Notes under the pieces: model-generated | The model's input: only the letters and a program-made list of their open reading frames with translations | Databases searched by the model: none | Told to the model about the DNA's origin: nothing | Part shown: piece by piece, positions 55,305-55,779 of the stretch | Layout of the letters: each line of letters begins with the position of its first letter | Numbering within the stretch: the stretch's first letter is position 1 | Program-made: the position numbers and the translations under genes | NCBI RefSeq assembly: GCF_002000545.1 | Contig: NZ_MLHL01000009.1 | Coordinates: 1-64,000 of the forward strand | DNA: 64,000 nucleotides | From: Rodentibacter trehalosifermentans | Lineage (GTDB): Bacteria; Pseudomonadota; Gammaproteobacteria; Enterobacterales; Pasteurellaceae | Direction of reading: 5' to 3'

Positions 55305-55779
55305 TTTCGCCCAATGGGCGACCTACTTTTCTTTGCTTGTGCAAAGCAAAGTAGGCAAAAGAAACACACCCCAGTTAAATTGCTGATCTTTGCTTGGTTT
55401 CAATTTTCTTGACGGCAATTTTCTGAACCCGCCGCAAGCGGCTCAAACAGACGAAAATTTCCTAAAAATTGAAAGTCGCAAAGGCAATTTATATGGGGCC
55501 CCAAATTTATCGGAGCGTTATTTTAAAAGTGCGGTTGATTTTAAGTTTGTTTTTCCACCGCACTTTATTCGTAGAAAGAACAAAATGGGTTCCCTTCTTT
55601 GCCGCCTTTGTGTAATTGAATTTGTAGGAAATTTTCGTTTGTTTGAGCGTAGCGAGTTTAGAAAATTTCCGTTAAGCAAATTCAATGGAACAAAGGATTA
55701 AGGCAAAGCAGGGTTGCCTTTCTTTTGGTTACTTTTCTTTGGCAAAGCAAAGAAAAGTAACTCGCCCTTCAGGGCGAAA
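55305..55779. repeat. 475-bp imperfect palindromic element between leuA and leuB
   Basis: The left arm (55305-55364) and right arm (55719-55779) are inverted repeats about 60 bp long and roughly 85% identical. The inverted identity continues inside: the ACGAAAATTTCCTA tract near 55453-55466 on plus recurs as its reverse complement near 55628-55641. The centre is an uptake-signal pair (55527-55535 and 55557-55565). So the whole 0.5-kb leuA-leuB spacer is one long palindrome with no credible gene. Each arm also folds on itself (TCGCCC/GGGCGA and CTTTGC-type repeats). It looks like a MITE-like non-autonomous element. Confidence 0.75.

Follow-up and report, generated by a model that had tools for sequence, protein, structure and literature searches.

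What is the palindrome that nearly fills the spacer between leuA and leuB in Rodentibacter trehalosifermentans, and how does such a sequence come and go? The window analysed here, the whole 64,000-nucleotide stretch from position 1 of contig NZ_MLHL01000009.1, was the subject of an earlier note that described half a kilobase of imperfect palindrome with uptake signals at its apex and offered three explanations: a MITE, an inverted duplication grown around a terminator, or a dispersed structured RNA element. We find that the sequence is dispersed, that it is present at a given site in some species and absent in others, and that it obeys two rules of covariation. The explanation we favour, with about even confidence, is that the spacer holds a dispersed non-coding repeat of inverted units with triplex-type caps, which would be gained and lost through its folded ends and carried along as a passenger of transformation.

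An inverted pair of units in the leu operon

The spacer, between the start of leuB (55275) and the end of leuA (55791), two minus-strand genes named from NCBIfam, is almost entirely occupied by one imperfect palindrome at 55304–55780, close to the 55305–55779 given before. Compared with its own reverse complement, this interval is 67% identical over 477 bp (E 3.6e-36). Outer inverted repeats of 57 nt (55316–55372 and 55711–55767, 81% complementary) correspond to the arms that had been put at about 60 bp, inner ones of 45 nt (55441–55485 and 55604–55648, 84%) to the internal inverted identity reported with them, and the apex indeed holds a pair of uptake signals (USS) in opposite orientation. 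The large hairpin foreseen for the leu mRNA is borne out by computation: on that strand the palindrome has a predicted folding energy of −194.7 kcal/mol, whereas shuffled versions average −115.3 (sd 5.7; z −14) and none of 100 folds as stably. Once one half is reversed, the two halves align end to end, which makes the palindrome an inverted pair of ~200-bp units. Each unit is built, in order, from a short hairpin (A), a capping module of ~50 nt (B) and a hairpin of ~125 nt (C); hairpin A is not evident in many Actinobacillus copies. The parts found in the window are as follows.

55304–55780, no strand assigned: whole palindromic element, an inverted unit pair (self reverse-complement match and an 80% copy elsewhere)
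55307–55321, plus strand: end hairpin A of the leuB-side unit (stem-loop then T-rich tail, terminator-like)
55323–55372, plus strand: capping module B of the leuB-side unit (stem, loop, mirror purine tract, tail)
55369–55498, plus strand: hairpin C of the leuB-side unit, 130 nt (covariation analysis of C domains)
55526–55535, plus strand: USS at the apex
55557–55566, minus strand: USS at the apex, inverted
55591–55713, minus strand: hairpin C of the leuA-side unit, 123 nt (covariation analysis of C domains)
55711–55760, minus strand: capping module B of the leuA-side unit (matching mirror tract and loop-tail pairing TTGCC/GGCAA)
55761–55778, minus strand: end hairpin A of the leuA-side unit (stem-loop, terminator-like)

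The stem of the leuB-side module B carries one mismatch, AGC in place of the pairing AGA. The leuB-side hairpin C lacks the loop motif and therefore lies outside the extraction pattern used below, which its homologous copies at loci L038 and L041 fit. Searched against Rfam, the window gave no match at the gathering score, and the lines below that score are what we would expect of any long hairpin. At the spacer junction the final codons of leuA (55791–55810) vary, encoding AVGA in the window and HKHH in genome G006 (L067). Further along, the minus strand at 57899–59881 encodes a 660-residue protein with many tandem repeats and NCBIfam lines below the cut-offs, which we take to be Sel1-like.

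Copies elsewhere and sites filled, deleted or empty

A second whole copy, 80% identical, stands between ilvC and ilvY in the same genome, and two partial copies lie in the gap between mutH and an NAAT-family (MarC-type) gene and upstream of parC (names from NCBIfam). The same two unequal halves and the same USS apex recur at ilvC–ilvY, which leaves an inverted duplication grown in place without support. Matches at E 1e-8 or better occur in 28 of 61 relatives' genomes, and 14 of the 15 genomes in the genus contain element-related DNA; a contig labelled Rodentibacter rarus also carries the module. The exact 45-nt core was found in 72 stretches of named genomes, whose hosts include Aggregatibacter, Actinobacillus, Mannheimia, Bibersteinia, Silvimonas, Methylomonas, Pseudoxanthomonas and Burkholderiaceae. 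When positions were freed to loosen the pattern, 77 of 140 genomes of the family Pasteurellaceae matched, as did 16 of 398 drawn from the phylum, five of those 16 being family members, and the reversed pattern used as a control had no match in the rows of either search. Phages gave no match, nor did E. coli genomes to a 57-nt core. There were 73 copies of the exact core, 66 of them with enough surrounding DNA for an inverted mate to be scored; a clear mate was present in 22 of the 66 (score of at least 18, the best null over all rows being 17), a scoring that misses some pairs, such as L191 and L207. End to end, the inverted pairs span 351–695 bp.

Several further occurrences were noted in passing. 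The core is also present in MAG contigs labelled Ruminococcus and Bacteroidales (L198, L171), where misbinning is possible, and a related core lies on an Ilyobacter plasmid (L254). Other copies are found near amino-acid genes: 3′ of leuB in genome G028 (L053), 3′ of dapF, as annotated, in P. multocida (L253), and in G014 (L046) beside two further amino-acid genes that are presumably thrB and thrC.

Three sites were compared across 15 congeners. At leuA–leuB, seven genomes hold the whole element (G000, G002, G004–G008), two an internally deleted one (G003, G009), one a chimera that joins one half to a G/C-rich repeat (G001), and one a half visible at a contig end (G011); two have a pair of the G/C-rich repeats instead (G012, G014), one a third repeat type with a REP-like GTAGGGTGCCGTTAGGCGAAGCCGTAACGCACC hairpin (G013, L073), and one a 43-bp spacer with none of these repeats (G010). 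At ilvC–ilvY, eight genomes are filled, one has a single end (G007) and six are without the element, two of which (G003, G011) keep a remnant of the end hairpin. At mutH–marC, an end remnant is seen in G002, the element is absent from four genomes (G007, G010, G011, G013), G001 has the G/C-rich repeat, G008 has other sequence, and G012 and G014 have no adjacent mutH; all six filled copies have one half degraded or missing, so this site is poor for defining the ends of the element. The copies elsewhere and the filled and empty sites, both of which the earlier note had proposed to look for, dispose of the outcome it named as contrary to its reading, a single-copy sequence conserved at this site only. 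Filled and empty sites in sister species open gain and loss to study.

The G/C-rich repeat at leuA–leuB deserves separate mention. It is a palindrome with BoxC-like triplex motifs (CCCCTCTTT..AAAGAGGGG TTA GGGGAGA), observed in this spacer at L074 (G014), L079 (G012), L080 (G020) and L070 (G001). In G014 it forms a BoxC-like inverted pair with one TTA loop and one CCG loop, so two triplex-capped families alternate at the site, and in G001 the BoxC-like and A/T-rich families adjoin. At ilvC–ilvY, the palindrome of one copy (L031, 3210–3799) does not stop at the element ends but continues outward (CTACTTTCTTTATTTATTTGAAATCGCC with its complement), which would fit growth or conversion of the arms.

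The sites just described could also be relics: insertions of some age, passed on vertically, that now undergo deletion or conversion only, the structure making them unstable while nothing moves the copies any more. Loss-like sites fit this account, namely the remnants at ilvC–ilvY and mutH–marC and the deletions at leuA–leuB, as does the raised instability at BoxC repeats described in the available part of Holder et al. (PMC4666352). Against it stand two counts: copies per family genome vary widely, from 0 to at least 20 among the matches listed, with some places counted repeatedly, and a 49-bp part of the module occupies up to at least 40 places per replicon in Paraburkholderia (e.g. NZ_CP012748.1), which suggests a high-copy branch. 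On balance, we consider purely vertical descent rather unlikely.

Two covariation rules and the level of action

Both rules concern module B, in which a stem, for example TTTTCTTTG/CAAAGAAAA, is followed by a purine tract, AAAAGAAA, and a tail. By the first rule, the tract reads as a parallel complement to the stem's first strand and hence as the mirror of the purine strand. A pattern with three unconstrained positions per strand, across all three strands, was applied to the fetched loci; of the 52 unique sequences it gave, 51 have a tract that follows the first strand (which is TCT in 41, CTT in 6, CTC in 2 and TTC in 2; the sole exception is a TCT sequence). With length variants included, 22 of 24 distinct combinations matched in full, compared with 5.9 in shuffles and none of 5000 as good; the extraction favours A-G tracts, and the shuffles were drawn from the same set. 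Three observations count against our explanation: the second stem strand is mismatched in 5 of the 52 sequences, among them the window's leuB-side module, two of the 24 combinations fail, and one match among those listed for genome G467 breaks the mirror rule. The second rule is complementarity between loop and tail: across 63 distinct combinations the longest helix averages 4.60 pairs, compared with 3.48 (sd 0.10) for shuffles, none of 2000 reaching it; these sequences are related by descent, a kinship that the shuffles retain, and the ten combinations with a helix of three pairs or fewer again count against us.

Taken together, the tract and the loop-tail pairing predict a stem that takes up a third strand and is locked by an H-type pseudoknot, the predicted triplex being of the purine motif on one DNA strand and of the pyrimidine motif on the other. 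Both modules of the window have the class II order of an intrastrand triplex, with pyrimidine, purine and mirror purine on one strand. Pairing between halves does not explain the mirror, since the halves of the ilvC copy differ in tract type and each tract is matched inside its own half. Template correction within a palindrome can yield antiparallel complements but no mirror, and for that reason we regard the mirror as the strongest sign that a triplex has been selected. The three-way covariation points to a selected triplex.

Hairpin C covaries as well. We extracted 79 C domains, 69 of which could be aligned by their arms. Across 32 consensus pairs, 93% of cells are Watson-Crick, compared with 70% after shuffling (maximum of 500 shuffles, 72%), and 24 of the 32 pairs show at least two Watson-Crick types; invariance at the CCC...GGG ends and the TCGC...GCTCA loop, which the extraction required, is by construction and is not evidence.

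Do these structures act in DNA or in transcripts? The C domains hold 59 G-T cells and 23 A-C cells, of which 38 G-T cells fall in one pair; with that pair set aside, G-T cells are not above A-C cells (21 against 23). Of the units scored as single that lie between two co-directional genes, 34 share the direction of those genes and 28 oppose it (p 0.53); 16 more lie in convergent and 13 in divergent gaps. This tally was made with a strict pattern, so that some "single" units are halves of pairs (e.g. L067, L072, L221); it contains recurrent orthologous sites and leaves out copies whose neighbour gene is more than 900 bases away. The weakness of the replication-strand bias counts against our explanation: 21 copies are on the lagging and 10 on the leading strand (p 0.07), partly non-independent, in a sample of 31 copies hand-picked among the matches listed from 10 of 19 genomes, with most lengths rounded, five G454 neighbours counted as one and one G471 inverted pair excluded. 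In this comparison mnmG was our assumed stand-in for the replication origin, as in H. influenzae.

The proposal of a dispersed structured RNA fares differently in its two parts. Its dispersal holds. As for a role in RNA, the hairpin and pseudoknot would act in transcripts, through termination, polarity or stability in the leu operon, and they have in their favour the very stable fold, a pyrimidine strand that could form an RNA triple helix, and four terminator-like sites in the region, compared with 0.8 in shuffles, two of which are A hairpins followed by a T-rich stem. These sites, which would suit a transcript role, count against our explanation; no promoter-like site was seen in the element region. 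The lack of gene-orientation bias, albeit with some pair halves among the "single" units, and the lack of a G-T excess outside one pair weigh against such a role, and we judge it quite unlikely. With modest confidence, we favour action at the DNA level.

Transformation, candidate movers and known systems

The apex would link the element to natural transformation. In all nine inverted pairs from named genomes, the apex holds an uptake signal of the type proper to the host clade, the two dialects being those we take to be named Hin and Apl. A Hin-type signal lies near the centre of 5/5 pairs from Aggregatibacter and Rodentibacter (L153, L191, L194, L207, L208), and an Apl-type signal near the centre of 4/4 from Mannheimia, Actinobacillus indolicus and Bibersteinia (L169, L176, L214, L216); among 11 further pairs, ten have the Hin type and one (L042) has no signal. 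The central 30% of the nine pairs contains nine Hin signals in 671 bases and four Apl signals in 495, against non-coding backgrounds of 3.1–3.5 and 0.85 per kb, respectively, although signals inside one element are not independent of each other. The agreement between signal and host clade makes a link between a repeat family and transformation open to test.

Comparison with congener G005 bears on movement by recombination. The window and G005 show no mismatch in nine 250-base bins from 55500 to 57749, whereas bins from 54250 to 55249 have 18–36 mismatches each; the leuA–leuB element is 100% identical in the two genomes. This pattern marks 55500–57749 as a recombined tract, which takes in leuA together with most of the element, and the mosaic looks as recombination would make it. 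A second stretch without mismatch to G005 was observed at 61750–62499. Since another identical stretch exists elsewhere, the tract shows movement by recombination and does not point to the element as its cause.

From these findings, the following mechanism can be proposed. As a single strand, a unit end would fold into a stem whose purine strand meets a third, mirror strand, giving an intrastrand triplex; a pseudoknot between loop and tail would lock this capping module, with the long hairpin next to it. Acting at the DNA level, the folded single-stranded ends may offer a handle through which an enzyme or some repair process adds or removes copies. No gene for a mover came to light near the fetched copies, which counts against this explanation. 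The uptake signals at the apex could help the element to travel between strains as a passenger of natural transformation, and the copy in the leu operon would be largely tolerated as an insertion and would give the mRNA a large hairpin.

Could a known type of transposase be the mover instead? A classical MITE, with terminal inverted repeats and target-site duplication and moved by a DDE transposase, is a suggestion that keeps some of its ground, through the element's dispersal, its inverted ends (the outer 57-nt arms) and its site polymorphism. At mutH–marC, moreover, ATTTC flanks the insert on both sides in G003 and G006 and is present once in G007 and G011; this may be a 5-bp target duplication, but the pentamer may equally be part of the element end, which leaves the one candidate duplication ambiguous. 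A scored inverted mate in just 22 of 66 copies speaks against a MITE, and no gene-bearing transposon relative was noticed near the fetched copies, the dedicated search having been for Y1 genes only. We regard a MITE as very unlikely. Y1 genes occur in 42 of the 61 relatives, and GTAG precedes the end hairpin in some halves, as might be expected if the element were a REP/REPIN mobilised by a Y1 (RAYT-type) transposase. That mover is highly improbable and was rejected for now, given that no element-like DNA or capping module flanks the Y1 genes at 30 loci and 7 more (one match, L135, being the leu copy ~6 kb away), that L129, L131 and L132 carry GTAG hairpins of their own, that G020 and G031 hold the element and gave no Y1 match, and that the Haemophilus RAYT REPs in the available part of Nunvar et al. 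(2010, PMC2817692) are different.

Returning to the repeat with folded ends, a more ambitious form of the idea would unite BoxC and A/T-rich branches in one superfamily of mobile palindromes, with triplex and pseudoknot ends read by an undescribed enzyme and an apex that adopts the host's uptake dialect and so spreads by transformation in competent Pasteurellaceae; we hold this to be unlikely. Among systems that work alike, integron attC sites have paired arms that vary and keep some unpaired bases, as the element does with its varying arms and some constant unpaired bases. No description of the element was found in the open-licence literature, and the list of PITs in H. influenzae by Hoyne and others, which PMC4666352 cites, may include the module.

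Other known repeats share single features with it. REP, BIME and REPIN sequences with RAYT genes are likewise palindromic, intergenic, and single or in inverted pairs, but the Haemophilus REPs listed in the available part of Nunvar et al. (PMC2817692) are GTAGGGTGGG hairpins, unlike the element. H. influenzae has intergenic dyad sequences that the accessible text of PMC4144887 ties to mobility of loci; these are, like the element, intergenic dyads in Pasteurellaceae, a likeness by description only. Similarly, Pam-1 of P. multocida, a 155-bp structured stem-loop repeat in 12 copies that contains uptake-signal repeats according to the available part of PMC2267715, is likened to the element by description only, both being structured and carrying uptake signals.

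The closest comparison is with BoxC/PIT repeats, which are intrastrand triplex motifs (Holder et al. 2015, PMC4666352). In the available part of that paper, E. coli K-12 BoxC occurs five times as inverted pairs of TTA-loop and CCG-loop copies, and BoxC/PIT sites show raised local variability and instability, with no gene-regulatory role found. BoxC/PIT/TM-ECO, as described there, and the element share the class II order, an intergenic and dispersed distribution, an occasional inverted pair (for BoxC, in E. coli K-12), the lack of gene-orientation bias and variable sites. The element departs from BoxC in four respects: its modules are A/T-rich and do not follow the G/C-rich BoxC/TM-ECO consensus CCCTCNCCC...GGGNGAGGG...GGGNGAGGG given in the same part of PMC4666352; it has a loop-tail pseudoknot; each unit carries a 125-nt hairpin; and the pair, ~440–480 bp here, has a USS apex. 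Judged from sequence, the element would be an A/T-rich form of BoxC/PIT repeat to which a pseudoknot and a large covarying hairpin have been added. BoxC/PIT repeats have long been known, with no function reported in the available part of PMC4666352, and with the family described here they would gain a larger relative of modular build from beta- and gammaproteobacteria.
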